From: an uncultured Cohaesibacter sp. | GTDB taxonomy: Bacteria; Pseudomonadota; Alphaproteobacteria; Rhizobiales; Cohaesibacteraceae | DNA length: 64,000 bases | Direction: 5' to 3' | Assembly (NCBI RefSeq): GCF_963666525.1 | Contig: NZ_OY762905.1 | Span: 2,028,001 to 2,092,000, forward strand | Shown: piece by piece, positions 46,801-63,323 of the stretch | Layout: every line of letters starts with the position of its first letter | Position numbering within the stretch: the first letter of the stretch is position 1 | The notes under the pieces: generated by a model | The model's input: only the letters and a program-made list of their open reading frames with translations | Told to the model about the DNA's origin: nothing | Database searches by the model: none | Program-made: the position numbers and the translations under genes

Positions 46801-46974
46801 GCCGAGGCCCGCATCGCAGTTGGTTGGGTCGTGGTCGGCGGGTTGGGCTTTGCCACCCTGTTCACGCTGTTCCTCATTCCCGTGTTCTATCGCTGGCTGG
46901 CGCCGCTCGGCGGCGAACCGGGAGCAGCAAGCCATCGGCTCGATCAGGAGATTAGCCAGCAACAGTCGGTATAG
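43870..46974 (+). CDS. RND-family efflux permease
   Basis: 1034 residues, HAE-1/MexK-like inner-membrane pump with 12 membrane segments and two large periplasmic loops. Blocks: MTRLFVARPILAFVINLLII, FSVNTISLLALVLATGMVVD-DAIVVVENIVRR (TM4 with the proton-relay Asp pair), STTATLAAVFIPISFLPGQA, YYSQIGLVMLIGVMAKNGIL and EFANQLRERGQD. Proton-driven export of a drug-like or toxic compound is the family role. Forms a pair with the upstream adaptor and ends at a terminator. Confidence 0.94.
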   Translation: MSNKHVEGMTRLFVARPILAFVINLLIIIAGIAALAGVEVREMPDVDQPSLSVRTTYEGASAEVVDREITSVLEDAFGALDGVKDISSTSSYGSSRITLDLNSDVDVDIAANEAREIVSQTMRQLPDDVEDPTVRKSNADADPIIRLALSGNKSLAELTTLAEGPITDRLNLVEGIAEITVTGAKANEFRINVSMPALLARGLTLSDISTALKTLRNDYSLGSVDSNLSTTTLRSVNPLVTTEMIGKLRINATTYISDVANVQLTGEDTTQSARVNGRPSIGLDIVRQSVGNTLTISQDVRKAVAELQTQLPDDVSLIITTDDGIFIEGSITEVTKSILLAVVIVIVVIFLFLRSWRATIIPAIAIPVALIGTLAAIWIVGFSVNTISLLALVLATGMVVDDAIVVVENIVRRRHDGEGARFAAVAGTNEVFFAVISTTATLAAVFIPISFLPGQAGGVFSEFGFVLAFCVTLSSVVALTMAPMLASILDPGKPSRKMQEAAARDEERPDGLIKRLFLDVVDKAIRMPLLTIGIAIAFAVFAIGAAQNLTSTLTPPEDRGMFFMIATGPVGGSNDYMSDEIGQVEKILEPYRESGEVKSVLSLIGRGGGTRAFVIVRLANWEDRERDQQTILTELNRKLAHIASIRVMARSGNSLGIRGGGSGLSFAVTGNDYPKLVDGADKMIAAMEQDPTFTNPQLSSNDTSLQISVDIDRDRALELGITPDTIADSISAVTQGLTPTSVFIDGEEVDLTINPDGGWPVNDASDLERMFARTSSGNIIPLSSVASFTQVLSQASYARESGSLAISINANLPRGVDLGQAVERMRAIAHDVLPQGTSVTLLGEAGELDSGRAGTLLIFGVAGIIVFLVLAAQFESFVSATIIMITVPFGLAAAMLAIMITGGTLNYYSQIGLVMLIGVMAKNGILIVEFANQLRERGQDIDSAIRDAVSLRIRPVMMTMVSTVFGGLPLIITSGAGAEARIAVGWVVVGGLGFATLFTLFLIPVFYRWLAPLGGEPGAASHRLDQEISQQQSV

Positions 46975-47047: not shown

Positions 47048-50000
47048 TCAGGCAGTCTGACGAAAGGCCTCGGGGTTTCGCAAGTCAGCGATGAGGTCCT
47101 CATCGCGATGGCGGATCAACCAGCTTTCCGCCAGTGCCGGATCCATCGGACGCGAGAAATAGAAGCCCTGAATGGCATCGCAACCAATCTCGGTCACCTT
47201 CCGCACCTGCTTCTCGGTTTCCACCCCTTCCGCAACGACCATGATTTGCAGCCGTTGCGCCATCGAAACGATCGCAGAAACGAGCGTCTCGTCAGCATGG
47301 CTGGTGGTGATCTCGCCGATAAAGCAGCGATCAATCTTCAGGATGTCTGGCTGGAAGCGCCGCAGATAGCCGAGTGAAGACTGCCCCGTTCCAAAATCGT
47401 CAAGAGCGATCGAAACGCCAAGCTGGCGGATATCGGCAAGCGAAGACGCCGCAGCGTCGCTATCCCTGAGAATGGCTGTTTCCGTCACCTCGAACTGCAA
47501 CTTCGATGGCGGAATTGCCATGCGCCGCAGAATGGCCAGCAATCGCTCCATGGCCGCCCTGTTGTTCAACTGCACAGCCGACAGATTGATCGAAAGCAGT
47601 GGCACGTCTATGCCCTTCGCCAGCCAGCTCTGGGCCTGATGAATGGCGCTGCGCAGCACCCATTCACCGATTTCGATGATCAATCCGCGCTGCTCTGCCA
47701 CCGAGATCAGCGACCCGATGGGAACACCGCCGAAATTGGGATGCCTGCTGCGCAGCAGGCACTCCATGGCCTCCACCCGACCACTGTCGATATCAACGAT
47801 CGGCTGATAGTGCAGCAGGAACAGATCCTCATCCAGAGCCTGCCGGATGCTGGCTTCAAGCCCTATCTGCTGCCGCGAATTGCGGTTCATTTCCTCGGAG
47901 AAGAAGCGATAGTTGTCCTTGCCTTCCTGCTTCTGGGCATACTGCCGGGCCATCGAGGCGTTGCGGATCAGAGTCTCCGCATCATGCCCGTCACCAGGGA
48001 ACAGGCTGATGCCGATGTTGGACGAGGCATACAGCACTTCATTCTTGACGGTGATCGGCGTGGCGAGGCTTTCGAACAGTCGCTTCATGATCCAGACGAT
48101 GGTGCTGGTTTCCTCCAGATCGGACAGTTCCACCAGGAAGTTGCCATTGGCAAGATGGCAGACACTGGGAATGCGCTTGGTACCATCAAGAGTGGCGATG
48201 GTGTCGCTGCGTTTGAGAGAGGACTTGAAGCGCGACGCGATGATGGCCACGAAGTCGGTCGCCACCGCCTCGCCATAGGCGGACGCGATTTCCTCTACCG
48301 TATCGATTGAGACATTGAGCAGCGCCACGGTCTTGTCGCTCCACTCGGCCCGGGTGATGGATTGCGTCAGGCGATCCATGAAAATGACATCGGAGGGTAG
48401 CCCCGTCAGCGGATCCGTGGCGAGCAGACGCTGGGTGTGACTATCCGCACGGGCCAGTTCTGGCCGGGCAGCAGAAGGAGCCTCACCCGCAGCGGGCAAA
48501 GGCGCCCGGTCGGATTGAGCCGGTTCGCTCTTCGCCTTTGCCACATTGACCGCCACGGTATCAAGATCCTCCCAGAAAACGACACGGTTTCTCCCGCTCT
48601 CCTTGGCCTCATAAAGGGCCTGGTCGGCACGATCGACAATATCGGCAGCCGAGCAATGCTGTCCGGACAGGATGGCCAGCCCGATGGACGCTGTCACCGA
48701 TCGATCAGGGTGACCCAGCCAGGTGGAGGAATGCTGCAGAACCGCGTTCCGAATGGCTTCGGCGACAGCATGACCTGTTTCTGCATCGGCATTGGGCAGG
48801 ACGACGCAGAACTCCTCCCCCCCATAGCGGCCAACAAGGCCCGCGATGCCACTGGCATCGTGCAACACTTCGGCAATCCCCGCAATCACCCGGTCACCTA
48901 CCGCATGCCCATAGGTGTCGTTGACGGATTTGAAATGATCAAGGTCGACCATCATGCAGATGAGCATGGAATGGTTTCTTTCCACCTCGGCCAGCACCAC
49001 CGAGAACTGTTCGAAGAAGGCCCGGCGATTGAGGCAACCGGTCAGCGGATCATGGCTGGCCAGATACTGCAATTCGCGGTTCTGCTTGCTTATCTCCTCC
49101 TCACTCACCTGCAATTTCTGAACGGCAGCCTCCAGATCGATATTCTTGCGCTCGATCTCGGTGACATCATCAAACGTCACGATCACCCCGGAAATCCGGT
49201 TTTCGCCGCCATGAATGCAGGTCGCATTGACAATGAAGTTATGCGGACTGCCCGTTTGATCACGAAAGCTGATCCTCGCACCGGTCACATCTTCCCGGCT
49301 CTGGATAGCCAATTGCCAGGGATGCTCGGTCAAACGTCCACCGTTGTTCCATTGGCGCCAGTTGAGTTTGGAGACATTGGTCCCGAAAAGAGCCTGGGAA
49401 GGAATGGCAAGAGCGCTCGACAAAGCCTCGTTGGCGAGCAGGATTATCCCGCGATCATCCAGAATGAGGACGCCTTCGGCCAGACTGTTGAAGGCAGACT
49501 GCACCCTGTCCGGAATGACATTGCCCGGATCAAGCTCTCGCAAAGCGCGCCGCAAGACGAAATAGTAGCCAGCAAACCCGAGACAGCAGACAAACAGCAG
49601 GAACCGGCCCACCGAGACCGGAATGCCCAGAAACTGTTTGGACGAGGCGAGCGGCGCAAAGGACATCTCGATCCGACCCCACACCCTGTTCTGATCGGAA
49701 AGGGATACCTGAATGTGCCGGGCGTTCGACTTGCCGCCCTCAGGGGCCTGCCAGTTGGCATCATGATCGCCCGACGACAGCAACAGCGTGCCGTCATTGC
49801 GGCGAATGCCGACAGACAGCAGCTCCTTGTTGCGCCCGACGACCATATCGATGGTCTGGCGCATCACCTTGACATCATACTGGGACGCCGCCGCGCTCAA
49901 TTGCAGCGCCAGCGCTTCGGCAAAATCGGCACGGGCATTCAGTTCCTGCCGCTCCTGGTTGGGGAACAGGCCAACCAGAAAAGCCGTCATGAACAGCGTC

Positions 50001-50062
50001 AGCGTAATGCCGACAAGACCGAAACTGATCCGGAAAGTGGGTGAGATCAGGCGTGATATCAT
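47048..50062 (-). CDS. Membrane-bound c-di-GMP protein: sensor-PAS-GGDEF-GGDEF-like-EAL
   Basis: 1004 residues. Membrane helix about 10-32, periplasmic sensor about 33-160, second helix about 160-180, PAS about 190-310. The first GGDEF domain (about 335-500) has the active motif GRYGGEEFCVVLPNAD (near 412) and MVDLDHFKSVNDTYGH. A second GGDEF-like domain (about 550-720) lacks the signature. The EAL domain (about 735-990) has EAMECLLRSRHPNFGG (ECL in place of EAL, with the Glu kept), ALDDFGTGQSSLGYL and VVAEGVETEKQ. It can probably degrade c-di-GMP and perhaps make it. The ATG overlaps the end of the giant surface-protein gene, so it is likely in one operon with it. Confidence 0.93.
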   Translation of the reverse strand: MISRLISPTFRISFGLVGITLTLFMTAFLVGLFPNQERQELNARADFAEALALQLSAAASQYDVKVMRQTIDMVVGRNKELLSVGIRRNDGTLLLSSGDHDANWQAPEGGKSNARHIQVSLSDQNRVWGRIEMSFAPLASSKQFLGIPVSVGRFLLFVCCLGFAGYYFVLRRALRELDPGNVIPDRVQSAFNSLAEGVLILDDRGIILLANEALSSALAIPSQALFGTNVSKLNWRQWNNGGRLTEHPWQLAIQSREDVTGARISFRDQTGSPHNFIVNATCIHGGENRISGVIVTFDDVTEIERKNIDLEAAVQKLQVSEEEISKQNRELQYLASHDPLTGCLNRRAFFEQFSVVLAEVERNHSMLICMMVDLDHFKSVNDTYGHAVGDRVIAGIAEVLHDASGIAGLVGRYGGEEFCVVLPNADAETGHAVAEAIRNAVLQHSSTWLGHPDRSVTASIGLAILSGQHCSAADIVDRADQALYEAKESGRNRVVFWEDLDTVAVNVAKAKSEPAQSDRAPLPAAGEAPSAARPELARADSHTQRLLATDPLTGLPSDVIFMDRLTQSITRAEWSDKTVALLNVSIDTVEEIASAYGEAVATDFVAIIASRFKSSLKRSDTIATLDGTKRIPSVCHLANGNFLVELSDLEETSTIVWIMKRLFESLATPITVKNEVLYASSNIGISLFPGDGHDAETLIRNASMARQYAQKQEGKDNYRFFSEEMNRNSRQQIGLEASIRQALDEDLFLLHYQPIVDIDSGRVEAMECLLRSRHPNFGGVPIGSLISVAEQRGLIIEIGEWVLRSAIHQAQSWLAKGIDVPLLSINLSAVQLNNRAAMERLLAILRRMAIPPSKLQFEVTETAILRDSDAAASSLADIRQLGVSIALDDFGTGQSSLGYLRRFQPDILKIDRCFIGEITTSHADETLVSAIVSMAQRLQIMVVAEGVETEKQVRKVTEIGCDAIQGFYFSRPMDPALAESWLIRHRDEDLIADLRNPEAFRQTA

Positions 50063-53000
50063 CGGATCATCCGCTCGCTTTTCTTATCGGGAGAACGTTC
50101 GAACACCCGCTCCGCACTGGTCAATTCGCCATCATCCTCTTTGGCTCCCCTGGCCCGGGCCACGGCAATCGGACTGGTCGACCCAAGGATCACCATCGGA
50201 TCGAATCCCTTCCAGACGGGCATGGTCGACATGAAGGCGCTCATCAAGGCTCCACTGCGAATGACCCATGTCACGAAGCCTGCAGACAAGGCAGTACCGA
50301 TGGACAGGGACAGCTCGACAGGTGACGCCCCGATGATACGATCCTGCTGCTTAAGATCGCGTAACGACTGATCAACCGCCTCATAGACCAGATTGGTTTC
50401 GACATGACCAAAACCGATCCGTTCATAGTGAACCCTCGATTGCAGGGCCCTCTTGAACTCCTTGAAAACCGGCAACGCTGTCCGGTCAAGAGCCGCATCA
50501 AGCAGATCGCCATCCGGCGCCAGCCATTCCCGATCCGCACGCTGGGACTCTGCGGAGACCTGAACGATATCCGCGGCCACCTCGGCATCTGCCACCTGAA
50601 TGGTGCCATGTCCTTCACCGGAGAGAGGCTGCACCACAGTGTCAGTCGCCGTGCTCGCGATCGACGCGCTGGCGGTTGTAGCATCGAGAGCCTCATTGAC
50701 GACGGTGAAGCTAACAACGCTCGTCTCACGGGCAAACAAGGCAACGTCCAGACCCGCAGAGGCGAGACTTTCCCGAGTGCCATGACCATCAACATAGGAC
50801 ACGACAACCGAAAGGGTTCCACCTGAATCGCCATAGCTTAACTGATATTGTGCACCCGTCGCGCCACTGATCGCCACGCCGTCTCTGAGCCACTGGTAGG
50901 AGAAGGTACCAAGGCCGTCCGCATCGCCAATACCGGAGACATCCGCCGTCAGCGTCTGCCCTTCCGTCGCGGTGCCCGCGATCAGCGGCAAGCCGGTCGG
51001 TGCGTCGTTGACATTGGCAACCGCTGTCGTTGCTGCGGACGCAAGGCTTTCAGTCGTGCCATTGCCATCGACATAGGAAACCCGGACGCTGATCGCGGCA
51101 TCAACGTCGCCATCCCCGAGCACGTAGGTCGAGCCCGTTGCGCCACTGATCGCCACGCCATCGCGCAGCCACTGGTAAGAGAAGGTGCCAAGGCCGTCCA
51201 CATCGCCAATACCGGAGACATCCGCCGTCAGCGTCTGCCCTTCCGTTGCGGTGCCTGCGATCAGCGGCAAGCCGGTCGGTGCGTCGTTGACATTGGCAAC
51301 CGCTGTCGTTGCTGCGGACGCAAGGCTTTCAGTCGTGCCATTGCCATCGACATAGGAAACCCGGACGCTGATCGCGGCATCAACGTCGCCATCCCCGAGC
51401 ACGTAGGTCGAGCCCGTTGCGCCACTGATCGCCACGCCATCGCGTAGCCACTGGTAAGAGAAGGTGCCAAGGCCGTCCACATCGCCAATACCGGAGACAT
51501 CCGCCGTCAGCGTCTGCCCTTCCGTTGCGGTGCCCGCGATCAGCGGCAAGCCGGTCGGTGCGTCGTTGACATTGGCAACCGCTGTCGTTGCTGCGGACGC
51601 AAGGCTTTCAGTCGTGCCATTGCCATCGACATAGGAAACCCGGACGCTGATCGCGGCATCAACGTCGCCATCCCCGAGCACGTAGGTCGAGCCCGTTGCG
51701 CCACTGATCGCCACGCCATCGCGCAGCCACTGGTAGGCGAAGGTGCCAAGGCCGTCCGCATCGCCAATACCGGAGACATCCGCCGTCAGCGTCTGCCCTT
51801 CCGTCGCGGTGCCCGTGATCAGCGGCAAGCCGGTCGGTGCGTCGTTGAGATCGTTGACCGTAAGCGTCAGAAACTCGACGTAGCTGCCTCCGGCGCTATC
51901 GGCTACCTGAACCTGCACCGTATAGCTCGACCGGGTCTCGAAATCGAGAATACCATCATCGAAGATCAGGCTATCGCCATTGAGGCCGCCAAGCGAGAAA
52001 CAGCCAACATCGGCACCCCCGATCAACGCAAAGGTGAAGCTGTCGCCAGCATCATTGTCTACAGCTGACAACGTTCCGAGCTGAATGCCCCCTGTTGTAT
52101 CGATACCCTCATCCAGCGAAAAGCCATTGGGCGCGATGTCGGTTGGCGCCTGATTCTGATCGACCACCGAGATGGTGAGGCTCTCCTCGATCCAGCTGCC
52201 GGAAGCATCGGTTGACCGCAGGATCACCTGATAGCTGGACTGGGCGTCAAAATCGAGCACCCCGTCATCAAGCAGCAATTCGTCAAGGCCCACCCCGCCG
52301 ATGGAAAACAGCGCAGCATCTGCACCACCGACAATCGTGTAGCTGAAGCTGTCACCGCTGTCCGGGTCGGAAGTGGTCAGCGTTCCAAGGGAGTATCCGC
52401 CCGCGGTATCGGTGTAGTCGTTGATCGAAAAGCCGTTGGGGGCAATATCCACCGGCGTGTCATTGATGGCTGTGATGTCGACATTGACCATACCGAGCAG
52501 AGCCGAAGTGCTGCCCGAGCCGGTATTGCCATTGTCATCAACACTGATCGTCAAACCATCAGCATTGTTGCCATTGATATGCTGGGTCGCATGGAGATAA
52601 CTGATGTTGCTGGCAACATCCAGATAGCTGTTGAGGTCAACGATGGTGCCGGACACGGTGACGGAACCACTGCCATTGCCGCCAATGGTAATGCCGCTCG
52701 CCGCAGCAAGGGTCAGTTGCCCTCCGGTGCTTGTGGCCAGCGAAAGCGTTACAATCCCGCCCCGGTCATCGAGATCAGCCAGATCCAGCGACGACAGATC
52801 AAGACTGCTCGAAACGTCCTCGATGACGCTCAGATCACTTGGCAGGCTTCCCCCGTTGTAGGCAATGTCGTTGACCGCTGCGATATCGACCGTAAGTGTG
52901 GTGGCTCCCGAGATGGCATAGAGATCGGACACGATCACGTCGATGGACCGCGTGGTCACGTCCGGATCCTCGGCACTGTTCGAATAGGTTATGGACCGCA

Positions 53001-56000
53001 GCGCCGTCTGGTATGTGGCAAGGTTGGCCGTGCCGGACAGGGTCAGCGTTCCGGTACCACTGTCCCAACTGCCTGTGATCCCGCCCTGATCGATAAAGGA
53101 CAGCACATCCTGACCGCTCACATAATTGCTGATCTGCAAGGAGACGCCGGTTACATCCGAGTTTTCGGCATCGGTCAGTGTCAACAGAGCATCAAGCGTG
53201 ACCGCGCTGCCCCCTTCGGTAAAGGTCGGTACGGATCCCGATGGCGTCAGCACCGGAGCCACCGGCACATCATAGTCGATGGCAATATAGGGACGCAGGG
53301 CGATCGTGCCATATTCGGAGGAGGCAAAGGACCAGCCGTCTGCATTCGCGGAAACAAACGCCAGACCGTAATTCGAATTGCCATAGGCCCAGCTCTGGAT
53401 GAGAGTTTCCAGGCCGGAAATCTGCACCCAACCGCTTTCTCCCGCGTCGATGGTGGCAAGTGCCGTCGCACTGGCCTCAACGTCATCCGTCGAGACACCG
53501 TTGGTCAGGGAATCATGGGTGGAGGTCTCATCCCAACTGACCAGCATTTCGTGCACGGTCACCTGATCAAGCGGATCGGTGCTCAGCACATAGATCCAGA
53601 GACTGGCCTCGTTGATGGTCGACCCCAGCGGCACCTGCCCGGCGCCACTGCCGAACATATCCTCAAAGCGGATCAAGCCGGATTCCAGAGGCGCGTCGTC
53701 ATCCACTCCGATGTAATGCAGAACACCTTGCTGCGTCGAGGGCTGGATGCTGTCGGTAAAGGTGTCAAGCGTGCCCGCGTAGGAAGCAATTCCCTGCTGG
53801 AAGTGGGCAACCGAAACATCAATCTCGATCAGATCACTGTCGACCTGTGCCCCGCCAGAGCCACTGTTGCCAAGGTCATCAGTCAAGATGGCTATCGAGG
53901 CAATGCCCGAATAGTTGGCTGTGGGCGTGAAGGTAAGGCCATCGAGGGCCGTATTGATGGCGGCGGTCGTTCCCTGAAAGATCATGGATGCATCCGCAAC
54001 CCCGTCACCCAGGCTGAAACTCAGCCCGGCAGTACCCGACAGGCTGATGGAGCCATCGGTTGCCGAGAGGGTCACCTCCACAACGCTGCCGCCCGCGTCA
54101 GGATCGGATATGGAAATGGCATTGCCCGACAGTGAGGAGAAGGTCAGAATTTCATCGACGCTGATAGCCTGCGGACCGGGCGTATTGTTGACAGGCGCGG
54201 AGTTGACCGCAGTTATGGCCACGACTGTGCTGCCCGAGGCGGTCTTGTTGCCGCCAGACCCCTGCGCGCCAATGTTACCATCAGCGAAGGTCCAGTTGAG
54301 CGTGACGCTAGCCGGTGGCGCCGAAGAACTGTTGGAATAGGCGATCTGCTGCATCGCATGATTGACCAGCGCATTGGTGGCATTGGCGTTGAAGGTCAGC
54401 AGCAACAGGCCCGCCGAATTCGTCGTCACCGTCCCGATGGATATCGCATCAACGGTGAGACTGCCCCCCTCTGTCAAGCCGCCGAGCGTACCGCTCTCGA
54501 CAAAGATGTCTTCGCTGTTCGAGCCACCATTGCGCACGATCTCAAGCGTCGCGCCGTCAAAACTGTCTGCACCCGACAGCTCCACATCATAGACCGCGAC
54601 ATCGACATCAAGCACCACGGCCGAGCCGCCCTCGACATAGGTGGGTGTCCCGTCCAGCTGGGACGTGACATGAAAATCGAGATCGAAAAACCCGGTGCTT
54701 TCAAAGCGAGCCAGGAACCCGTCGTCACCGGAGCGACCGCCGGCGACAATGCTGCCGGTGTCGGAAATGGCCAGCGCATTGATCTGGTCATCGCCACCAC
54801 TGAGGTCTTCGATCACATATCCGGCGCTGCCGAAGCTGGTATCAACCGCCCCGTCCGCATTGAGCCGCACCACCAGAAGGTCGTAGTCCGTACCGTTGTA
54901 GGCTGAGCCGGCAATGAGGATCCGGCCATCGGACTGGACAGATATCCCGGATATGGTCTCGGCCTGCGATCCGACAGCCAGCGTCACGCTGCCATTGGTC
55001 CCGAAGGTGGTATCAAGCGAGCCATCGGTCCGCACCCGCATGACAAAGCTGTCCGTATTGCCCGCCGCATTCGTTGTTCCGGCAATGAGAATCCGCCCCT
55101 CGCCATCCAGGGCAATCTGGTAGCTGAGCTGATCCGAGGCCCCGTTCAGGTTTGTCCAGATGCCATCCCCGTCGAAGCTGGTGTCATAGGACCCGTCTGA
55201 ATTCAGCCGGATCAGGGCGAAATCCATCGACACACCAGTGTCATTGTAGCCGCCAATGATGATCTTGCCATCTGGCTGCAGCACCATTGACGTGACGAAT
55301 TCGTCATAGGCATCGATGTTGAGCGCCACCAGCCCATCCGTATCGAAGCTGCTGTCGAGAGATCCGTCCGTATTGTGCCGGGTAACATAGATGGCGCTCA
55401 AACCGCCCGAATAGACATTGCCGGTGACCACGATCTTGCCGTCAGGCTGAACCAGAATACTGCGGCCATAGTCATTGTCGCCAAGCGCAGCGCCAACGCC
55501 CAGAACACCACCCGAGCCGAAACTGCCATCCAGACTGCCATCGGCATTGTAGCGCACGATCAGGCCATGATCCGAAGAGCCGTTGTTGTAGGCTCCGACC
55601 ACGAGGATTCGGCCATCTGCCTGCAAGGTCATGCTGACAGGTGTTTCATCATAGCTGTTGATGGCCGTGATGACCGTGCCGTTGGTGCCCCATGCAGTGT
55701 CGATCGTGCCGTCGGAGAGATATTTCGTCAGACCGATATCGATGTCCTGACCGGAGCTGGCGGTGTTGACCGCGCTCAACGTGATGTAGCTGCCGTCATC
55801 GAGAATGACCAGATCGACGATTTCATCGGCCTGATCGGCCAGCGAAACAATGGCATATCCATCGCCGGGTCCGAATATCGGGGCGTTGTCGACTGCATTC
55901 ACCGTGATCGAAATGGCATCGGAAACAGCATCCTTGCTCGATGCCAGTGTCGCAATCTCGTCGACAGAAAGAACCCGGCTGTAGACACGGGCATCATCGA

Positions 56001-58683
56001 TCATGCCGTTGAACTCGTAATCGGTTGCCCCGTTGCCATGGGTGCCGATGTAACTGTCCGCCCCCAACGTGTAACTTATACTGTCCGTCGTCGTCGCACT
56101 GGCGACCGCAACCCCGTCGATATAGAGCGTGTGGGTGTCGTTGGCGTCATCGAAACTGTAGGCGATATGATGCCAGCCGGTACCCTCGATATACTGGCCC
56201 GACCCCAGAATATTCCAGCCGGAACCGTTATAAATGAGACCGCTGACACCAAAGCCAAAGCCCACCGTATCAACGGACAGAGCCAGACTGTCGCCGAGGC
56301 TAATGACCTGCGCTCCGCCGGTGTCGACGGCCGCAAGGTTGACCCAGGCAGACAGCGTTGCACTGGCGGGCTGATCGAACAGGCCGTCAATGAGCACATG
56401 GTCACCGACGCCGTCCAGACTGAGCACAGTGCCATGATCGGCATCAACCGTTGTTGTGGCATCGCCGACAAAAGTGCCATCCCAGCCAGTCGTGGCGCTG
56501 CCGTTGGCCGCATTGCCCGCATCAAAGGTGTAATCGGCAACAAGATCGGCATGCAGAGCAGTCGTCACGGTGATGTCTGTCACCCCGTTGAAAGTCTCGT
56601 CCGGCGTAAACACCAGTCCATCGAGCGCCGCGTTGATATCGCTTTCCAGCCCCTCCAGAACCATGTGGGCGCTGCTGTCCGTCCCCTCGACAAGAGTGAT
56701 GCCAGTCAATTGCGCCAGCGTCATCTGACCGTCGGCGGCATCAAGGGTCACCCGGATCGCGGCATCGGCCGGACTGTCATCACTGACCGTAATGGCATTG
56801 CCCGTAGCGGTGCTGAAAACCAGCGTGCTCCCCTCATCCACCGACTGCGCGGCGGGCACGGTCTGCAAGGGTTCGCTCTGCCGATCGGTCAGATTGACTG
56901 TGAAGATCTCGTCGTAGCTGTTCGCCGATCCGTCGGTTACCCGAATGGTCACGCTATGGGAAGTGGAGGTCTCATAATCCAACAGCGCGGTATCGGCGAC
57001 CGTTATCTCACCGGTGGCACCATCGATGGCAAAGCGACCTTCCGCATCATCGACAAGGCTGTAGGTGAGGCTGTCTCCGAGGTCGGAATCCACCCCGAAC
57101 ACCGTGCCGACAACACTGCCATTTGCGCTGTTCTCATCGATGCTGAAACTGCCCTGACTGTAGAGGGCGGCAGCCTGTTCGGCCGAGACCGTCTCATTCA
57201 AGACAACGAAATTGTCGATCGCCCCGTCAAAGGCAGCATCCCCCGCAAAGGCGGACTTGCCGATATAGTAATTGTCGCGCGTTCCCGACGTCAGTGCCGT
57301 ACCGGCAAAGGTCGCCGCCTCGACCCCGTTGACATAGAGCGTCATGGCACCCGCATCATCGACGGTTGCCACGAAATGCAGCCACTGGCCATCAGTGATC
57401 GCCCCGACCGCCGTTGCCCGGTTGGTGTAGCTGCCATCCACCTCCATTGTGAAGGTAAGATCGCTGCTCGTCTCGAACCGTCCGACATAGATGTTGCCGA
57501 TGCCGGTGCTGTTAGCCTGACCAAAATCGAAGACACGCTGAAAATAGCCGGTCGAATCGAACCGAACCCAGGCAGAGACAGTCATGGCACCACCGGATTC
57601 ATAGGCTGGCACTTCGGCATAGTCACCACCGGTTAACGCCAAGGCTCCCGAACCATCGGTGCTGACAGTCTGGCCGGGAGAATTGTAGAGGGTCAGATCA
57701 GACCCATGGCCGCTGTCATCCTGCCCCAGATCGCTGCCGACTTCGAAGCCATAGGCACCCTGAACGCTGGCATCGGCTACCCCGGGCAGCGATATCAGAT
57801 CGGAGGGAGTAGCCAGAACGTCGACCCATTGCGATTGCGCCTCGGCAGCGATGGCCACATGGCTTTCAATGGTTCCGGTTGCCACCTCCAGCTCCCAGTC
57901 CCCCCCCAGACTGTCGTGCCCTGTCAGGTCATCAGAGGCGGCGACGTCGGCGCCCGTCAGCATGGACAGTTGCAAGGCGGCCTGCGCACCGACAGCCCCG
58001 GCTCCGAAGTCGCAGCCATAGACAAGAATGTCGGCATCGACGCTGAGGGCTGAGCCAATCGCCTGGAGCGTATCGGCATAGACCCCTTGCATGCTTTCAA
58101 GGGTCAAGGAAGAAGCGCCAAGAGACAGTCGCCCTTCGTCACCGTGGCCAATGAAGTGCAACGCGGATATCCCGCTGCGCCCCGCCAGATAACCGGAGAT
58201 CTGGGCAAGACCATCCTCATGGGCATCAAGCAGCACAACTTCATAGGAAGGATCAAGGTCTGCCAGCAGGGTGGCAGCATCAACGACGGTAGCATCAACG
58301 AAAACAACTTCCTCTCCGGATGCCGAAGAGACATCAATACCCGTAGCCTGCAGACCGCCCACAGCAAGCCCGTCATCAACACCTGTGTCATGGTCAATCA
58401 AGTTAACAGGCTCAACACCATGGGATGCGGCATTGCTAGCGACCGGTGCCACGGCAGACGCCGACCGCGCAAGACTGTCGCTCACAGACAGATGATCGCT
58501 CGTGAGCAGATCGCCATCCGACAAGCCGTCAAAAGCCGTTGCCAGCAACGCGCCATCAAAGGCGATACGCGGCTCCAATTCCCGAAAGGCAAACACCGGT
58601 CCGGACTTTCGTTCGGATCCGTGATGATCCCCCTTTTTCAAACTGGCCTTACTCAAACCCGATCTTTCAACAGTGCTTTTCAT
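50059..58683 (-). CDS. Giant mosaic surface protein: LEPR-XLL-like start, DUF4347, LamG, cadherin-like, beta-propeller, tandem Ig-like repeats
   Basis: About 2,874 residues from the ATG at 58683 (MKSTVERSGLSKAS); an ATG at 58719 is possible. Using numbering from 58719, the order is: ELEPRIAFDGALLA near 45-58 (LEPR-XLL-type motif); DUF4347-like domain about 130-305 (YEVVLLDAHEDG, LHFIGHGDEGRLSLG, ADILVYGCDFGAGAVG); LamG-like about 355-515; cadherin-like about 520-615; second LamG-like about 725-920; six delta-60/propeller repeats about 945-1335 (DGSLDGSFGSGG); DNRLRE-like about 1630-1815; further cadherin-like domains; and four near-identical 93-residue repeats about 2290-2640. Near 2800-2845 a hydrophobic stretch (LSIGTALSAGFVTWVIRSGA) precedes a charged tail. 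No RTX repeats were seen. Likely a very large cell-surface or secreted adhesin. Confidence 0.88.
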   Translation of the reverse strand: MKSTVERSGLSKASLKKGDHHGSERKSGPVFAFRELEPRIAFDGALLATAFDGLSDGDLLTSDHLSVSDSLARSASAVAPVASNAASHGVEPVNLIDHDTGVDDGLAVGGLQATGIDVSSASGEEVVFVDATVVDAATLLADLDPSYEVVLLDAHEDGLAQISGYLAGRSGISALHFIGHGDEGRLSLGASSLTLESMQGVYADTLQAIGSALSVDADILVYGCDFGAGAVGAQAALQLSMLTGADVAASDDLTGHDSLGGDWELEVATGTIESHVAIAAEAQSQWVDVLATPSDLISLPGVADASVQGAYGFEVGSDLGQDDSGHGSDLTLYNSPGQTVSTDGSGALALTGGDYAEVPAYESGGAMTVSAWVRFDSTGYFQRVFDFGQANSTGIGNIYVGRFETSSDLTFTMEVDGSYTNRATAVGAITDGQWLHFVATVDDAGAMTLYVNGVEAATFAGTALTSGTRDNYYIGKSAFAGDAAFDGAIDNFVVLNETVSAEQAAALYSQGSFSIDENSANGSVVGTVFGVDSDLGDSLTYSLVDDAEGRFAIDGATGEITVADTALLDYETSTSHSVTIRVTDGSANSYDEIFTVNLTDRQSEPLQTVPAAQSVDEGSTLVFSTATGNAITVSDDSPADAAIRVTLDAADGQMTLAQLTGITLVEGTDSSAHMVLEGLESDINAALDGLVFTPDETFNGVTDITVTTALHADLVADYTFDAGNAANGSATTGWDGTFVGDATTTVDADHGTVLSLDGVGDHVLIDGLFDQPASATLSAWVNLAAVDTGGAQVISLGDSLALSVDTVGFGFGVSGLIYNGSGWNILGSGQYIEGTGWHHIAYSFDDANDTHTLYIDGVAVASATTTDSISYTLGADSYIGTHGNGATDYEFNGMIDDARVYSRVLSVDEIATLASSKDAVSDAISITVNAVDNAPIFGPGDGYAIVSLADQADEIVDLVILDDGSYITLSAVNTASSGQDIDIGLTKYLSDGTIDTAWGTNGTVITAINSYDETPVSMTLQADGRILVVGAYNNGSSDHGLIVRYNADGSLDGSFGSGGVLGVGAALGDNDYGRSILVQPDGKIVVTGNVYSGGLSAIYVTRHNTDGSLDSSFDTDGLVALNIDAYDEFVTSMVLQPDGKIIIGGYNDTGVSMDFALIRLNSDGSYDTSFDGDGIWTNLNGASDQLSYQIALDGEGRILIAGTTNAAGNTDSFVMRVRTDGSLDTTFGTNGSVTLAVGSQAETISGISVQSDGRILIAGSAYNGTDYDLLVVRLNADGAVDTSFGSAGYVIEDLSGGDDQINALAISDTGSIVAGGRSGDDGFLARFESTGFFDLDFHVTSQLDGTPTYVEGGSAVVLDVDVAVYDVELSGADSFDGATLEIVRNGGSNSEDIFVESGTLGGLTEGGSLTVDAISIGTVTTNSAGLLLLTFNANATNALVNHAMQQIAYSNSSSAPPASVTLNWTFADGNIGAQGSGGNKTASGSTVVAITAVNSAPVNNTPGPQAISVDEILTFSSLSGNAISISDPDAGGSVVEVTLSATDGSISLSGTAGLSFSLGDGVADASMIFQGTTAAINTALDGLTFTPTANYSGIASIAILTDDLGNSGSGGAQVDSDLIEIDVSVAHFQQGIASYAGTLDTFTDSIQPSTQQGVLHYIGVDDDAPLESGLIRFEDMFGSGAGQVPLGSTINEASLWIYVLSTDPLDQVTVHEMLVSWDETSTHDSLTNGVSTDDVEASATALATIDAGESGWVQISGLETLIQSWAYGNSNYGLAFVSANADGWSFASSEYGTIALRPYIAIDYDVPVAPVLTPSGSVPTFTEGGSAVTLDALLTLTDAENSDVTGVSLQISNYVSGQDVLSFIDQGGITGSWDSGTGTLTLSGTANLATYQTALRSITYSNSAEDPDVTTRSIDVIVSDLYAISGATTLTVDIAAVNDIAYNGGSLPSDLSVIEDVSSSLDLSSLDLADLDDRGGIVTLSLATSTGGQLTLAAASGITIGGNGSGSVTVSGTIVDLNSYLDVASNISYLHATQHINGNNADGLTISVDDNGNTGSGSTSALLGMVNVDITAINDTPVDIAPNGFSINDYTDTAGGYSLGTLTTSDPDSGDSFSYTIVGGADAALFSIGGVGLDELLLDDGVLDFDAQSSYQVILRSTDASGSWIEESLTISVVDQNQAPTDIAPNGFSLDEGIDTTGGIQLGTLSAVDNDAGDSFTFALIGGADVGCFSLGGLNGDSLIFDDGILDFETRSSYTVQVQVADSAGGSYVEFLTLTVNDLNDAPTGLPLITGTATEGQTLTADVSGIGDADGLGTFAYQWLRDGVAISGATGSTYVLGDGDVDAAISVRVSYVDGNGTTESLASAATTAVANVNDAPTGLPLIAGTATEGQTLTADVSGIGDVDGLGTFSYQWLRDGVAISGATGSTYVLGDGDVDAAISVRVSYVDGNGTTESLASAATTAVANVNDAPTGLPLIAGTATEGQTLTADVSGIGDVDGLGTFSYQWLRDGVAISGATGSTYVLGDGDVDAAISVRVSYVDGNGTTESLASAATTAVANVNDAPTGLPLIAGTATEGQTLTADVSGIGDADGLGTFSYQWLRDGVAISGATGAQYQLSYGDSGGTLSVVVSYVDGHGTRESLASAGLDVALFARETSVVSFTVVNEALDATTASASIASTATDTVVQPLSGEGHGTIQVADAEVAADIVQVSAESQRADREWLAPDGDLLDAALDRTALPVFKEFKRALQSRVHYERIGFGHVETNLVYEAVDQSLRDLKQQDRIIGASPVELSLSIGTALSAGFVTWVIRSGALMSAFMSTMPVWKGFDPMVILGSTSPIAVARARGAKEDDGELTSAERVFERSPDKKSERMIR
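50795..51850 (-). repeat. Tandem 279-bp repeats within the giant surface-protein gene
   Basis: The coding unit APTGLPLIAGTATEGQ... through ATTAVANVND recurs with a period of exactly 279 bases (93 residues); boundary sequence GCGTCGTTGACATTGG recurs near 51000, 51279 and 51558, with a variant near 51838. The middle copies differ at only a few bases, so they were recently duplicated or homogenised. The copy nearest the C-terminus diverges after GATGAQYQL. Copy number could vary between strains or be misassembled. Confidence 0.92.
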
Positions 58684-58783
58684 CGATCCTTGCCACGTAA
58701 CAGCAATACTCTGCCACATCGGGAAATATTTTAGGTCCAGTTGATTAAGATTTACATATCAGGATGACCGAATATGACGTTGT

Positions 58784-60922
58784 CTAAAAACCACTCTCAC
58801 GGTTGAAGACCCTGAAAAACCTATCTAAAAGCGATATAAGGCTGCTGCGGGGACGCGTCGGCAGATGGACGACCCCGCGCACCACCTGGCGGGGCTGGAA
58901 CGGCAGGTCGGACACATTGAAATCGGCGCGATACTGCGCGACCTGTGGCATCAGGCCGCTACCCTCGCGTTTGCTAACGGCAATCGCTCCGCCATAGACG
59001 GATGCCAGTTCCGCAAGGTCGATAACCTCGCTGTTGACCGCGGCTACCCGCTCCAATTTGACAGGGAAGCTCGCAAGCTGCAGATCATCGGGTACGAAAC
59101 GACCGGAGGCGTCATCATCGAGCCGCACCCGCTCCGCCTCGGCCAGATAGCCCTGCACCACATGTCCCGCGCCCTCGGAGACAATCGCAAGCAGCGCTCC
59201 CTTTTGAACCCAGCGACCGGGATGAAGATCCGGGGCCAGTTGAACTACCGTGCCCGCCGTCCGGGCCCTCAGTGTCATGGTCTGCCTGAGGTTGGAAAGC
59301 CCATCATATTCGGTTTGCAACGAGGCATATTGCTGTTTCAGCACCATTGCCTCATCGAGCCCCCCAGCTCCCGCCCCTGCCCTCAGCAACCGCGTTCGCA
59401 TCGACGCAAGCCGGATGCGGGAATCCTCAATATCGCTCTCGAGCTTGGGCACGTCCAGAGCGATCAGCACATCGCCTTCGACCAGCGCCCCGAACCGCTG
59501 GACGGGAACTGCGGCGATGCGCCCCGCCCGCTCCGCATACACACGGGTAAGATCTGAGCCGACCAGCACAGCAGGCACCGACACCCGCCCCGGCAAAGGC
59601 ACAACAAACAGCATGACAAGCAGGGCAAGAGCCCCGATTGACCATTTGAGCCGCCGCGGCAGTCCGCCAAGACGGATGATGCTTCGCCACTGGCCAAGCT
59701 CACGCGCCACGGGCAAGAGGATCAGAAGGCCGATCTCGACACAGAAAAGCGCGATCCCCAGCAGCTTGAAAGCAAAATGATACACCGCCAGTGCGATTGT
59801 CGTGAACAGCACGAGCCGGTAGACCCAGATGCTGAATGCATAGACGACAAGCCCTGCCCCGAGACGCTGCGGCACGGTTTCCGGCGCGGCCAGATCTGGC
59901 TTGAGCAGCCACTGTCGCACCTTCCATTTGCCAAACGTGAAGGCCCGCGGCTGCAGATTGTCCATCCCCAGCCAGTCCGCCAACAGATAATAGCCATCAA
60001 ATCGCATGAGCGGATTGAGGTTGATGGCAAGACTTGAAACCCATGCAGTCCCTGCCACCATGAACAGGATGGAACGCAGGGCTCCCTCTCCGGCCATCGA
60101 CCACAGGCAGGTTGCCAGCGCCGCAAGCGCCGTTTCCACCACGATGCCGGCTCCGCTGATTGCCATCCGCTGGCGTCGCTGCGCCAGCTTCCAACCGTCG
60201 GACACATCGGTGTACAGCAGTGGCGTCAGCAGCATGAAGGCCACCCCCATCACCGGCACGCGCACCCCGAAGGACACCGCCACAAAGGCGTGCCCCAATT
60301 CGTGCAGGACCTTGAGCAGGACGAGAACCAACAGAAACCCGAACGCCCCTTGCGGTGAAAGAAACACGTTGACCGATGCCGTGAAGGCGTCCCACTGGCG
60401 CAAGATGACATACAGCGCGTAAAGCACCAGGACACCGATGACAGCCAGCATGCTCCGACTCATCAACGGGCGAACGTAGGGCAAGGCGCGTTCCAGCACT
60501 GGCTGAGGGTGAAACAGTGGCACCTTGAAAAACAGATACTGCGACAACAATCGCTTCATCCGGGCCATTGAGGTACGGTCTGCCTCACCGGACAATTGAC
60601 GCCAGACATCCCGTCTGTCGTCATCAAGCAGGTTGCCCTTGCGGACGAAATCCAGCAGCCTGGCGACTTCCGCGTCGTCAATGGTCTCTCCGGTTGCCGC
60701 ACGATAGGCAACGAGGGCATCGCCAAATCCACCGATTTCCAGCCATGTCAACAGAATGCGGTAAGTTGCCTCGTTAATGCGGAAATACCTGTGCTGGACC
60801 GGATCCGAAAGGATCCAGCCAGCAGACCCGTCGACGTCTGACATCGCCGGATGCAACACCAGATCCTGACGCAGCCTTAGACGCATCGTCCGGTCATCGG
60901 GTCTGTTCGCCTCGTCACTCAT
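58784..60922 (-). CDS. M50 metalloprotease-like membrane protein fused to HlyD-like adaptor half
   Basis: About 712 residues from the ATG at 60922, which overlaps the upstream stop as ATGA; an ATG at 60934 also fits. The N-terminal ~120 residues are soluble and PqqD-like (ILSDPVQHRYFRINEATYRI). The membrane part carries the zinc motif LKVLHELGHAFVAVSFGVRV (HELGH near residue 209) and the third-ligand region INLNPLMRFDGYYLLADWLG (near 310), as in site-2-protease/M50 enzymes. After the last membrane helix come lipoyl-like halves (VYAERAGRIAAVPVQRFGAL; RARTAGTVVQLAPDLHPGRW). It probably forms the inner-membrane part of an export or anchoring device for the giant protein encoded next. Catalytic residues appear intact. 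Confidence 0.85.
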   Translation of the reverse strand: MSDEANRPDDRTMRLRLRQDLVLHPAMSDVDGSAGWILSDPVQHRYFRINEATYRILLTWLEIGGFGDALVAYRAATGETIDDAEVARLLDFVRKGNLLDDDRRDVWRQLSGEADRTSMARMKRLLSQYLFFKVPLFHPQPVLERALPYVRPLMSRSMLAVIGVLVLYALYVILRQWDAFTASVNVFLSPQGAFGFLLVLVLLKVLHELGHAFVAVSFGVRVPVMGVAFMLLTPLLYTDVSDGWKLAQRRQRMAISGAGIVVETALAALATCLWSMAGEGALRSILFMVAGTAWVSSLAINLNPLMRFDGYYLLADWLGMDNLQPRAFTFGKWKVRQWLLKPDLAAPETVPQRLGAGLVVYAFSIWVYRLVLFTTIALAVYHFAFKLLGIALFCVEIGLLILLPVARELGQWRSIIRLGGLPRRLKWSIGALALLVMLFVVPLPGRVSVPAVLVGSDLTRVYAERAGRIAAVPVQRFGALVEGDVLIALDVPKLESDIEDSRIRLASMRTRLLRAGAGAGGLDEAMVLKQQYASLQTEYDGLSNLRQTMTLRARTAGTVVQLAPDLHPGRWVQKGALLAIVSEGAGHVVQGYLAEAERVRLDDDASGRFVPDDLQLASFPVKLERVAAVNSEVIDLAELASVYGGAIAVSKREGSGLMPQVAQYRADFNVSDLPFQPRQVVRGVVHLPTRPRSSLISLLDRFFRVFNRESGF

Positions 60923-62334
60923 AGACCGATCCATTGCCTGAGCGCCGTCAGCGGGCGCCGGAACAGATACATGCCGAGCACAGTGCGCGCCCCATAGATC
61001 TGAGCGGTGCCGCGCACGCCGAGCCGCGGCGTGGGCGCAGTCGGATCAGCGAAGGCAGCGACGACCCGGAAGGACAGCTGACTGGCGCTGTCCGGTAAGG
61101 CCTGATAGTCGGCAAACAGGATTTTCGCCTCGCGGCTGGCAAGCGGGTCACTGTCGAGAAAGGCCTTCACCCGCGCCCCCGGCTTCAGCACCAGCGCATC
61201 CCGGACCGGGACCCGTACCACGAGCTCGGTCTCGCCCGGGTCGGCGATCTGCATGATCCGCTCACCCGTCACCACCGGCTTTCCGATGAGCGCCTGCTTG
61301 TCGGAAAGCACGACAACGCCGTCACGCTCGGCCCGAACGGATGAGCGCTCAAACAGATCTTCGGCATAGCGCAACTCGGCCCGCTTGAGGTCGAGATTGG
61401 CCATCGCGGTGCTCAATTCCTTGCGTCCCTCGTCATCGGAAAAGGCCAACTGGTTGGATTTCTTCAACCGGGCTTCAGCCACCTGCACTTCTTGCCGCGC
61501 CAGTTGCACCCGATTTTGCAGCTCAACGCCGCCCATCCTCACCAGCGGGGTGCCCTCTGTCACCTTGTCACCAGGATTGACCAGCACGTCCTCAATGACG
61601 CCATCGATCGGCGCCGCAACGACAAACGGTTTGTGGGCACTGATCTCCATGGGCGCCAGAACGCTCATGCGCACAGGGATCGCCAGGATCAGCAGGGCCG
61701 CCCCGATCCCCAGCGCGGCCAGTCGGCTGCGTTTGCCCGCAAGCCAGCCAAGCCGCAGCGATACTCCAGCCTTCAGCAGCAGGGCGTCCATCGCATGGGC
61801 ATAGCAATCGCCGAGGCGCCTGGCCAATGTCACCTGTGCCTCGTCCCACGCATGCTCCCCGGCCAGTAGGAAGCCACCGAGAAGGCGCCCTTCCAACGTC
61901 ACAAGAGGCTGCCACAACAGCTGCGGGAACGGATGCCCCGCCAGTTCGTGCACCGAGGTTTCTTCTAGCTGGTCGGGGGCCAGAGCGCCGACCAGCCGTT
62001 CCAGCTGCTGAATGAGCGCGGCATTCCGATCAAGTCTGGGCAATCCCGAGATCGCCGACATCCGCATGCTGCCCCGTTTGCGGAAGACAAAGATCTGTCG
62101 CGCACCGGTGAGCCTGCGCGTTTCATTGGCAATTAGAAAGGAAAGATCCTGCAGGCGAGAGACCCGGCGCGCTTCGGCCTCTAGGCCCAGCAATGCCTCC
62201 AGAAAGGCCGCATGCTCATCCATGACGAGGGCCGCAGCCGTATTTTGGGCATCGGCATCCGGCCTGACGCTTGTCTCCGGCCGGTGCAACCGATCCGTAG
62301 ATCTTCTGGACGAAAGAGGGCGCATCGACATCAT
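60919..62334 (-). CDS. GAF-like domain fused to HlyD-family adaptor
   Basis: About 471 residues from the ATG at 62334, just after the upstream stop; longer forms are possible. Residues about 40-195 look like a cytoplasmic GAF domain (LSFLIANETRRLTGARQIFV, LLGGFLLAGEHAWDEAQVTL). One membrane helix follows (LAALGIGAALLILAIPVRMS, about 210-230). Then comes a periplasmic HlyD-like adaptor with VVAAPIDGVIEDVLVNPGDK, a coiled coil (RQEVQVAEARLKKSNQLAFS) and VRAERDGVVVLSDKQALIGK. A cytoplasmic sensor joined to an export adaptor is unusual. It is coupled to the M50 gene by ATGA. Confidence 0.82.
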   Translation of the reverse strand: MMSMRPLSSRRSTDRLHRPETSVRPDADAQNTAAALVMDEHAAFLEALLGLEAEARRVSRLQDLSFLIANETRRLTGARQIFVFRKRGSMRMSAISGLPRLDRNAALIQQLERLVGALAPDQLEETSVHELAGHPFPQLLWQPLVTLEGRLLGGFLLAGEHAWDEAQVTLARRLGDCYAHAMDALLLKAGVSLRLGWLAGKRSRLAALGIGAALLILAIPVRMSVLAPMEISAHKPFVVAAPIDGVIEDVLVNPGDKVTEGTPLVRMGGVELQNRVQLARQEVQVAEARLKKSNQLAFSDDEGRKELSTAMANLDLKRAELRYAEDLFERSSVRAERDGVVVLSDKQALIGKPVVTGERIMQIADPGETELVVRVPVRDALVLKPGARVKAFLDSDPLASREAKILFADYQALPDSASQLSFRVVAAFADPTAPTPRLGVRGTAQIYGARTVLGMYLFRRPLTALRQWIGL

Positions 62335-62338
62335 CCCC

Positions 62339-63130
62339 CTACTCGAAACTGGCCGTCCCACTCATGCCCGGCAGGACATCGGATGGTTCGGCGGCAAAGG
62401 CGGCGTAGAGCTTGACCGTCTGGGAAACGGAATCGACCGTTGCCCCGATCTGCGTGACACGCGCCGGATAGTGCTTCTGCGTTTCGTCGACGAAAAAGTC
62501 GAACCCGACCCCTGCCTTCACCCATGTCAGCCACATCGAAGGGACGATCAGCTCCAGACTCGGAGCCTCTCTGGAGACGATCGAGATCAAGGGCTTGCCG
62601 GGATTGGCGATTTCGTGTTCCTGCACAGAAAGCTGGGAAACCACCCCATCATAAGGGGCATGGATTTCACAGAAGCGGAGACGCGCAACAGCCGATTTGC
62701 GATCAGCGCCAGCCCGGTCCGCTCGGGCCTGGGCGATATCGACCTTGTATTGGCTACCCGCATCCTGTCGGTAGAGATAGGTCGCACTCTTGAGAGCCAG
62801 TTCCATTTCCCGCATGTAGGCTTCAGCCGCTTCGACTTCTGCAATCTGACGGCGGCAATCCAGACGGATCAACACGTCGCCCTTCGAAAAACGGTCGCCC
62901 TCGATGCGGGGGGTTTCAATGACCCGGGCCATCATTTCCGACGATATGGCAGCATGATTGGCCGCCCGAATAACGCCACGAACCGGCAACTGGCGATCTG
63001 TCTGGCTTCCTTCAGATGCCAGCGGCGCCTGGGCGAGTGCCGCAGAAAGGCACAACACCAGCATGGTCAGAAAACCGGTCAGCCTGACCGAAAGTTTGCC
63101 AAGGCATGCTCTCATTTGCAGAAACGCCAC
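62339..63130 (-). CDS. Periplasmic HlyD/RND-type adaptor protein
   Basis: 263 residues with an N-terminal signal sequence or anchor (LTGFLTMLVLCLSAALAQAP). The short adaptor fold contains a lipoyl half VIETPRIEGDRFSKGDVLIR-LDCRRQ, a helical hairpin with ADRAGADRKSAVARLRFCEI, the second half HAPYDGVVSQLSVQEHEIAN, and a beta-barrel. First gene of the five-gene minus-strand cluster; it ends 5 bases before the next start. With the next two genes it would give three adaptor-like proteins in a row but no ATPase and no outer-membrane channel. Confidence 0.88.
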   Translation of the reverse strand: MAFLQMRACLGKLSVRLTGFLTMLVLCLSAALAQAPLASEGSQTDRQLPVRGVIRAANHAAISSEMMARVIETPRIEGDRFSKGDVLIRLDCRRQIAEVEAAEAYMREMELALKSATYLYRQDAGSQYKVDIAQARADRAGADRKSAVARLRFCEIHAPYDGVVSQLSVQEHEIANPGKPLISIVSREAPSLELIVPSMWLTWVKAGVGFDFFVDETQKHYPARVTQIGATVDSVSQTVKLYAAFAAEPSDVLPGMSGTASFE

Positions 63131-63212: not shown

Positions 63213-63323
63213 GGTTCTCACTTGATTAACCATATTCATATATCTGAAACAAACTTTAAAAATTGGATAAACGAAGCAGTAAATTCGCCCTTCTGCGACG
63301 AAAAGATCTCAAGATTTTCCCCA

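Follow-up and report, generated by a model that had tools for sequence, protein, structure and literature searches.

A five-gene operon on the minus strand of an uncultured Cohaesibacter sp. was analysed within a window of 64,000 nucleotides (NCBI RefSeq contig NZ_OY762905.1, positions 2,028,001 to 2,092,000 of the forward strand), in which it occupies positions 47048-63130; all coordinates below are those of the window. Judged from sequence, the first four genes probably encode an envelope-spanning exporter that works independently of an ATP-binding cassette (ABC) ATPase, together with its cargo, a giant repeat protein, and the fifth gene would encode a sensor of that cargo; transport, cleavage and signalling are the activities proposed for them. 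The reading is carried by a recurring gene set, a conserved leader, conserved catalytic residues, the lack of a linked ABC gene, a pairing between the membrane tail of the cargo and the sensor, and the linkage of a SecA-like gene to the cassette in a sister clade, all at the level of sequence.

Gene order was taken from the open reading frame (ORF) listing, which places all five ORFs on the minus strand. From 5' to 3' these are HlyD1 (62339-63130), a small periplasmic adaptor of 263 aa; an adaptor of 480 aa with a GAF-like domain, a transmembrane (TM) segment and an HlyD part (60919-62361); a PqqD-like-M50-HlyD fusion of 716 aa (58784-60934), the proposed inner-membrane core; the giant repeat protein of 2886 aa (50059-58719), the proposed cargo, with DUF4347, Laminin_G_3, Cadherin and DUF5122 repeats; and the sensor of 1004 aa (47048-50062), for which Pfam gives the arrangement TM-periplasmic-TM-PAS-GGDEF-GGDEF-EAL. 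With longest-ORF starts, HlyD1 overlaps the GAF-like-HlyD gene by 23 bases, which in turn overlaps M50-HlyD by 16; 64 bases separate M50-HlyD from the giant gene, and the giant and sensor genes overlap by 4 bases. An earlier note on this DNA had described five same-strand genes, three adaptor-type proteins of which one is joined to an M50 protease with intact HELGH, a giant surface repeat protein and a cyclic di-GMP (c-di-GMP) protein; the ORF listing and the Pfam and NCBIfam matches agree with each of these observations, and the operon is real. Its count of five junctions, four of them 4-base overlaps or gaps under 10 bases and one of about 100 bases, was in error, there being four. The interpretation that it attached to the operon is partly supported by what follows. 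ABC ATPase families were matched by none of the five operon proteins (Pfam, NCBIfam), and TolC was not among the ORFs adjoining the operon.

For the M50-HlyD fusion, an alignment of 56 proteins (A3, a subset of the M50-HlyD proteins collected) and a structure model (pLDDT 87.7) were used; in the model a three-strand/three-helix domain at the N-terminus is followed by a helical membrane part and by the adaptor half. Peptidase_M50 was matched at E 4.6e-7, and NF041824, the model of the daptide intramembrane metalloprotease, at E 6e-49 with 167 bits, under its cut-off of 300 bits; the M50 part thus resembles the leader proteases of ribosomally synthesized and post-translationally modified peptides (RiPPs). 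The three zinc-motif residues of HELGH (H211, E212, H215; 60290-60304) are invariant in 56/56 sequences, as are F312, D313, G314 and Y315 of the FDGYY motif (59987-60001), in which D313 is the candidate third ligand. With an HExxH motif, a third Asp and a helical model, the protein is assigned to the M50/site-2 protease type, with predicted activity. The adaptor half (approximately aa 445-716; 58787-59602) is of the HlyD/MacA type, since Foldseek of the whole model returned MacA (3fpp, E 6.6e-13) at the top, followed by AcrA and MexA. The N-terminal domain (aa 20-105; 60620-60877), three strands and then three helices in the model, is described here as like PqqD or a RiPP recognition element (RRE).

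The two stand-alone adaptors were recognised by Pfam and NCBIfam: HlyD1 by RND_mfp (103.1 bits, cut-off 94.9) and HlyD_3 (E 4.7e-18), the GAF-like-HlyD protein by HlyD_3 (E 1.1e-12). By hydrophobicity alone, the N-terminus of HlyD1 is signal-peptide-like (best 12-residue Kyte-Doolittle mean 2.48). A GAF domain at the N-terminus of the second adaptor may be inferred from its relatives: PF01590 (GAF) was matched in 4/19 of them at E<=1 (best 0.01), GAF_2 in 1/19 (9.4e-5) and GAF in two sister-clade proteins, whereas the window's own protein gave no GAF family match.

Recurrence of the gene set was analysed in three samples. Among 150 genomes of the same order, 19 matched M50-HlyD at E <= 0.001; none of the three other genomes of the same genus in that sample did. 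A scan of GTDB genomes gave at least 576 stretches encoding an M50-HlyD relative, from which 80 loci were kept; with 8 more, 88 loci were available for neighbourhood analysis, exclusive of L031 (the same locus as L092), L034 (incomplete) and L037 and L038 (sister clade). Neighbours were labelled with profiles and motif patterns made for this analysis, in part from sequences of these same loci, and gene counts are lower bounds because 60 of the 88 same-strand runs reach the locus end. Within these runs GAF-HlyD was found 83 times, HlyD1 71 times, TolC 47 times (PF02321 in all four examples scanned), a DUF4347 giant 24 times, another repeat-rich giant 14 times and GGDEF/EAL twice; TolC, HlyD1, GAF-HlyD and M50-HlyD stood all together in 45. 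A giant lay within the run at 38/88 loci, with an opposite-strand DUF4347 neighbour at 9 more. Chance is argued against by the recurrence of the gene set in contigs labelled as Alpha-, Gamma- and Betaproteobacteria, Nitrospirota and a Desulfobulbaceae metagenome-assembled genome; in viral contigs no relative was found. In 398 genomes drawn at the level of phyla, DUF4347 was present in 71 of the 77 genomes with a strong M50-HlyD match and in 24 of the 321 others (Fisher p 5e-50); when the 13 weaker matches set aside from the total of 90 were included, the counts were 75/90 and 20/308 (p 1.3e-46), both p-values overstating independence because the sampled genomes are related. An association local to this one genome was therefore rejected, being contradicted by the relatives' loci and the 398-genome co-occurrence alike, and the gene-neighbourhood check proposed in the earlier note came out in favour of co-occurrence of M50-HlyD, both other adaptors and the giant. 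Its statement that no ABC ATPase is linked was also borne out: the only ABC gene in the 88 runs (ABC being sought by motifs, not by profile) lay five genes off and adjoins a BPD_transp_1 permease, which marks it as an importer. Its description of an adaptor-only set is true of this locus, which is without TolC, and does not extend to the relatives, which carry TolC in 47/88 runs.

The giant carries the sole DUF4347 match in the genome of the window organism. An alignment of 42 giants including that of the window (A2; L114, L045 and L031 left out) was used to define its N-terminal region. The leader motif LEPRIAFDGA (aa 48-57; 58549-58578) follows the pattern LExRxxxDx[AS], present in 42/42 rows with L, E, R and D invariant, and LExR precedes DUF4347 in 44/45 DUF4347 ORFs, the remaining ORF being without its N-terminus. 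The NCBIfam LEPR-XLL model NF012209 matched 22/42 giants of the clade at E<=10 (best 1.1e-4); the leader of the window giant gave no match to it. A basic N-terminus precedes the motif, and the leader does not appear signal-peptide-like by sequence, its best 12-residue Kyte-Doolittle mean having a median of 1.47 over 44 giants. The DUF4347 domain (aa 138-302; 57814-58308; PF14252 E 2.4e-50) is caspase/legumain-like. Its model has a mean pLDDT of 74 over the region and >90 in most blocks of the domain, and Foldseek returned Tce1 (9qpe, E 1.5e-4), legumain (5.1e-4) and caspase-3 (1.0e-3); residues equivalent to H192 and C236 occur in >=90% of the 42 aligned giants. With a caspase-like fold and a His/Cys dyad, as in clan CD, the domain is a predicted cysteine protease, which may act in self-processing. 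At one locus two DUF4347 giants stand in tandem behind one cassette (L069:13358-20524).

At its other end the giant carries a hydrophobic tail with an LSAGFVxW motif (50194-50319; alignments A4 and A5), read as transmembrane; in the window it ends in LSAGFVTW plus a charged tail, has a best 19-residue hydrophobicity of 1.38 and is predicted from sequence to insert into the membrane. Among 42 giant C-termini from relatives (window excluded, own patterns), 25 were soluble and of a QL type, 13 unclassified and 4 of the membrane type; the frequent QL-type motif of the soluble-tail giants is a possible second sorting or retention signal. A tail profile built from five sequences, the window's included, matched 4/398 genomes, and in all four the next gene encodes a GGDEF or GGDEF-EAL protein and overlaps or is in contact with the tail-bearing gene. 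The conserved partner of the tail is the N-terminal module of the sensor (aa 1-180; 49523-50062; alignment A7), which in the window protein matched no Pfam family, the LapD N-terminal domain included. A wider search, covering the genomes behind 50 of the 80 loci, gave 12 with tails, mostly from contigs labelled as Nitrospira or relatives. Its 18 tail matches were followed directly in 15 cases and by profile scan in two (L195, L193), one (L181) lying at a contig end. Of 19 distinct tails, 15 have as their neighbour a protein that aligns with the window sensor over the first 180 residues; the profile scan added L195, with tail and sensor, and L193, with no sensor in the fetched flank, for a total of 16/21. 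The membrane module is shared and its outputs are swapped, being GGDEF-EAL, GGDEF only, histidine kinase or hybrid kinase.

When the 398 genomes were searched with the sensor module, strong matches (E < 1e-60) were confined to the four genomes that have the tail, always adjacent to it, with two further marginal matches at approximately 4e-4. A profile built without the four genomes found them at E 1e-41 to 2e-56 (window sensor 7.6e-52), and with this leave-out profile every match among 3973 ORFs of the fetched loci adjoins a tail except the two marginal ones. The pair also occurs apart from the cassette. In one genome (G419) the tail is on a two-partner-secretion protein beside ShlB and not on a LEPR giant, approximately 0.56 Mb from the M50 gene; at L174:7971-13007 the exoprotein of a two-partner-secretion pair, next to ShlB, has the same membrane tail and sensor gene as the window giant. 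Because the pair is found on a two-partner-secretion protein too, it appears able to pass from one export route to another, an argument for retention of the tail in the inner membrane as the N-terminus is exported. The c-di-GMP switch that the earlier note had placed in the transcript of the giant is indeed coupled to the giant (the same 4/398 genomes), but it goes with the tail and not with the exporter: as a part of the exporter the c-di-GMP gene was rejected, GGDEF/EAL being found in 2/88 runs and following the tail instead. Elsewhere a histidine kinase or a protein with GGDEF alone stands in its place, which suggests a readout sensor and not a release switch.

A candidate for the motor that the cassette lacks was found in a sister clade. 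Its M50-HlyD proteins score approximately 240-305 bits in our own profile, with GAF-HlyD present and repeat giants where seen. A length and HE[LF]GH filter left 11 sister proteins for a tree, in which they split cleanly (support 1.0) from the 56 of the window clade; 10 of the 11 come from SecA-bearing loci. A SecA-like ORF is present in 15/20 sister cassettes, directly beside M50-HlyD in 14 and one gene off in L038; L219 and L233 are outside the 20 (the ORF set used for them lacked an M50 gene), L219 nonetheless holding a SecA-like ORF and an M50 ORF. GEGK[ST] is kept in 14/16 SecA-like ORFs, and one of these has SecA_DEAD, SecA_PP_bind and P-loop_SecA domains and matches solved SecA at E 5e-125. 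Of five sister giants compared with the LEPR-XLL model, four are over its cut-off, and G320, in which no SecA was seen, is just under it (15.9 versus 17 bits); as the sister giants match too, the LEPR leader goes with both clades, one of which brings a motor.

From these observations we infer transport, its direction, leader recognition, cleavage, the motor and signalling as follows. The giant would be made without a classical signal peptide, and its LExR leader would be bound by the PqqD/RRE-like domain of M50-HlyD, whose intramembrane M50 site would then cut the leader, thread it, or both. HlyD1, GAF-HlyD and the HlyD half of M50-HlyD would form a periplasmic collar to TolC, here assumed to be unlinked because the cassette's own TolC is missing at this locus. 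A SecA-type ATPase would be the motor: in the sister clade a dedicated enzyme, and here presumably the housekeeping SecA. Export would proceed N-terminus first, after which the caspase-fold DUF4347 may trim the leader. In the subtype found here, the C-terminal tail would be held in the inner membrane, so that the giant spans the envelope, and would signal to the TM sensor encoded with it, by which c-di-GMP would be set. The broadest form of this reading, a new secretion class in which LEPR giants are driven by a SecA-type ATPase through a core of M50 and adaptors and through TolC, with the N-terminus leading, complemented by a portable tail-sensor receptor across the envelope with interchangeable c-di-GMP or kinase outputs, is put forward tentatively and is held somewhat less likely to be right than wrong.

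The SecA-like genes can be accommodated differently. Were the giant to cross via SecYEG by an unusual signal, M50-HlyD would be a signal peptidase and an adaptor that hands the chain over to TolC; the SecA-like ATPase of 15/20 sister cassettes, the basic N-terminus ahead of the leader motif and the presence of the tail on a two-partner-secretion protein, a Sec-dependent class, would all fit. The low hydrophobicity of the leader (median 1.47, compared with 2.48 for the HlyD1 N-terminus) and its charged LExR core, which is unlike a Sec h-region, speak against such a crossing, and we regard it as unlikely, though of the alternatives the one with the best claim.

Export by a conventional type I system whose genes lie elsewhere, with the cassette merely processing or anchoring the giant, is somewhat less probable again. 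It would agree with the three type I HlyD genes over cut-off in the window genome and with the lack of TolC among the ORFs beside this operon. However, type I HlyD is absent at E<=1e-30 from 9/77 strong M50-HlyD genomes (6/58 at high quality), of which 7 have a DUF4347 match, so that not every genome needs an unlinked type I system, and 47/88 cassettes have a TolC of their own. One of the genomes without type I HlyD (G170) holds HlyD1, GAF-HlyD, M50-HlyD, a 2016-aa giant with the leader LEPRMMFDGA, and TolC in order. Two marks of type I secretion are missing from the cassette itself: a linked ABC exporter was found neither in the 88 runs, where the single ABC gene is the importer described above, nor among the five window proteins, and in the search with TIGR01843 (cut-off 208.65) both stand-alone adaptors reached only approximately 30 bits, M50-HlyD not being among the matches to the model.

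M50 proteases cut membrane helices, and with giant, sensor and M50 in one operon it is conceivable that the M50 site mainly cuts the membrane tail of the giant for release, the GGDEF-EAL protein being the switch in the manner of LapG/LapD. This is doubtful, since only 4/42 giant C-termini of relatives are of the membrane type, yet the M50 residues are invariant, and since the tail-sensor pair of G419 is on a two-partner-secretion protein approximately 0.56 Mb from the M50 gene. As a general role of M50, tail cutting was rejected: 25/42 C-termini are soluble and of the QL type while the M50 residues are invariant in 56/56. Least of all do we expect the cassette to be an efflux or peptide-maturation system with an incidental link to the giant, for although the M50 part has its best named matches among RiPP proteases, HlyD1 scores as an adaptor of the resistance-nodulation-division (RND) type and a set of major facilitator superfamily (MFS) pump, adaptor and outer-membrane channel precedes HlyD1 in some Pseudomonas loci, few loci have such a set (neighbour clusters that recur in 9, 5 and 4 of 88), whereas giants recur.

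Several observations weigh against the proposed exporter and sensor. In some Pseudomonas loci, genes for an MFS pump, an adaptor and an outer membrane efflux protein (OEP) lie same-strand ahead of HlyD1. At L111, LysR, MFS, HlyD and OEP genes are upstream of it (MFS, adaptor and OEP confirmed by Pfam), similar-sized genes are upstream of it in L113 and L118, and the OEP cluster is found in 9/88 loci; a pump can thus adjoin the cassette, but the MFS-adaptor-OEP set is outside the cassette's shared genes. TolC and HlyD1 are both missing from 15/88 runs, of which 11 reach the locus end and 4 do not, and 6/77 strong M50-HlyD genomes are without DUF4347 while 24/321 others have it. In the window organism, type I HlyD genes over cut-off are present elsewhere, three in number, and none of the 15 OEP matches of the genome is of the cassette TolC type (best 10 bits). 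The PqqD-like domain is weak by sequence, PF05402 being matched in 3/56 relatives (best E 0.0082) and, just under cut-off, in one sister protein (E 1.1e-4), and comparison with solved structures by sequence gave no PqqD match. Two of the 15 SecA-like ORFs (L222, L229) are low-scoring and without the GEGK motif, possibly degenerate motors, and SecA-like ORFs were found in the scanned loci (the 88 included) only in three sister loci, the rest of the window genome not having been searched; as its fetched loci hold no SecA-like ORF, a SecA motor in the window's clade is a guess. For the sensor, 5/21 tails are without an adjoining module, the new information from the 398-genome search is the lack of strong matches in the other 394 genomes because the profile included sequences of the four, and the leave-out profile covers fetched ORFs only.

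Known systems share parts of this arrangement. With type I secretion (HlyB-HlyD-TolC; LapEBC) the cassette has in common HlyD-type adaptors, TolC in many relatives and a giant repeat cargo; it differs in being without a linked ABC ATPase, in having three adaptors, one of them fused to M50, and in the conserved N-terminal LExR leader. Tripartite efflux pumps (MacAB, AcrAB and EmrAB with TolC) have the same adaptor fold (MacA/MexA/AcrA) and TolC, whereas the cassette core holds no ABC, RND or MFS pump, an MFS set standing beside some Pseudomonas loci. SecA2 accessory Sec systems are similar in that the sister cassettes hold a short SecA paralogue among export genes, here coupled to M50-HlyD and adaptors. 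Giant surface proteins are tied to a c-di-GMP membrane protein in LapA/LapD/LapG and CdrA, as in the window, with retention of the LapA/CdrA type by an N-terminal plug or a cysteine hook; the window giant has a predicted C-terminal membrane tail instead and is paired with a sensor module that is without a LapD domain in Pfam and can carry a histidine kinase. The NCBIfam NF012209 proteins also bear an N-terminal LEPR-type motif on very long proteins, the window form LEPRIAFDGA missing the model, and we know of no exporter for the LEPR-XLL motif. The RiPP leader proteases MpaP (daptides) and EpeP/YydH (epipeptides) likewise combine an M50 domain with leader handling; MpaP takes off the leader RRE-dependently (PMC10036551), and for EpeP both cleavage and export are presumed (PMC10885120), whereas the cassette M50 is fused to HlyD, is accompanied by adaptors and TolC, and would act on a cargo of thousands of residues. 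The energised inner-membrane families of tripartite exporters are given as ABC, RND and MFS in a review (PMC8277102), and a giant adhesin with an ABC-containing set is described in PMC12153261.

In the full-text literature, mostly without subscription papers, no description of the cassette or of the tail-sensor pair was found. For LEPR-XLL/DUF4347, the same partly accessible literature yielded a Vibrio giant, a transcript, an entry in a proteome table, a candidate type VI effector and two mentions in lists, none concerning export by the cassette, and nothing was found there that pairs peptidase M50 with HlyD or an adhesin, or a site-2 protease with HlyD, secretion and TolC together.

In the flanks of the operon, a terminator-like hairpin read by eye (63323-63357, minus strand) sets it apart from a same-strand gene of the PTA_PTB phosphate acetyltransferase type upstream of HlyD1 (63427-63999), which runs off the window end. 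On the plus strand, an RND efflux operon (42680-46974; adaptor 42680-43864, ACR_tran permease 43870-46974) is convergent with it and ends 73 bases from the end of the sensor gene. At L111, M50-HlyD is followed by a GNAT acetyltransferase (L111:12094-12591) and a phage-tail-collar protein (L111:13094-13681; both by Pfam), as in similar Pseudomonas loci; these two clusters recur in 12 and 8 of the 88 loci, respectively.

If the proposed reading is true, a widespread exporter outside the ABC, RND and MFS families, with a candidate SecA motor, would enlarge the set of secretion classes. With the tail-sensor pair, a bacterium would be able to use a surface fibre directly as a feeler, and the sensor could report what the surface protein meets; the same tail with GGDEF-EAL, GGDEF or histidine kinase outputs would make such surface sensing testable.

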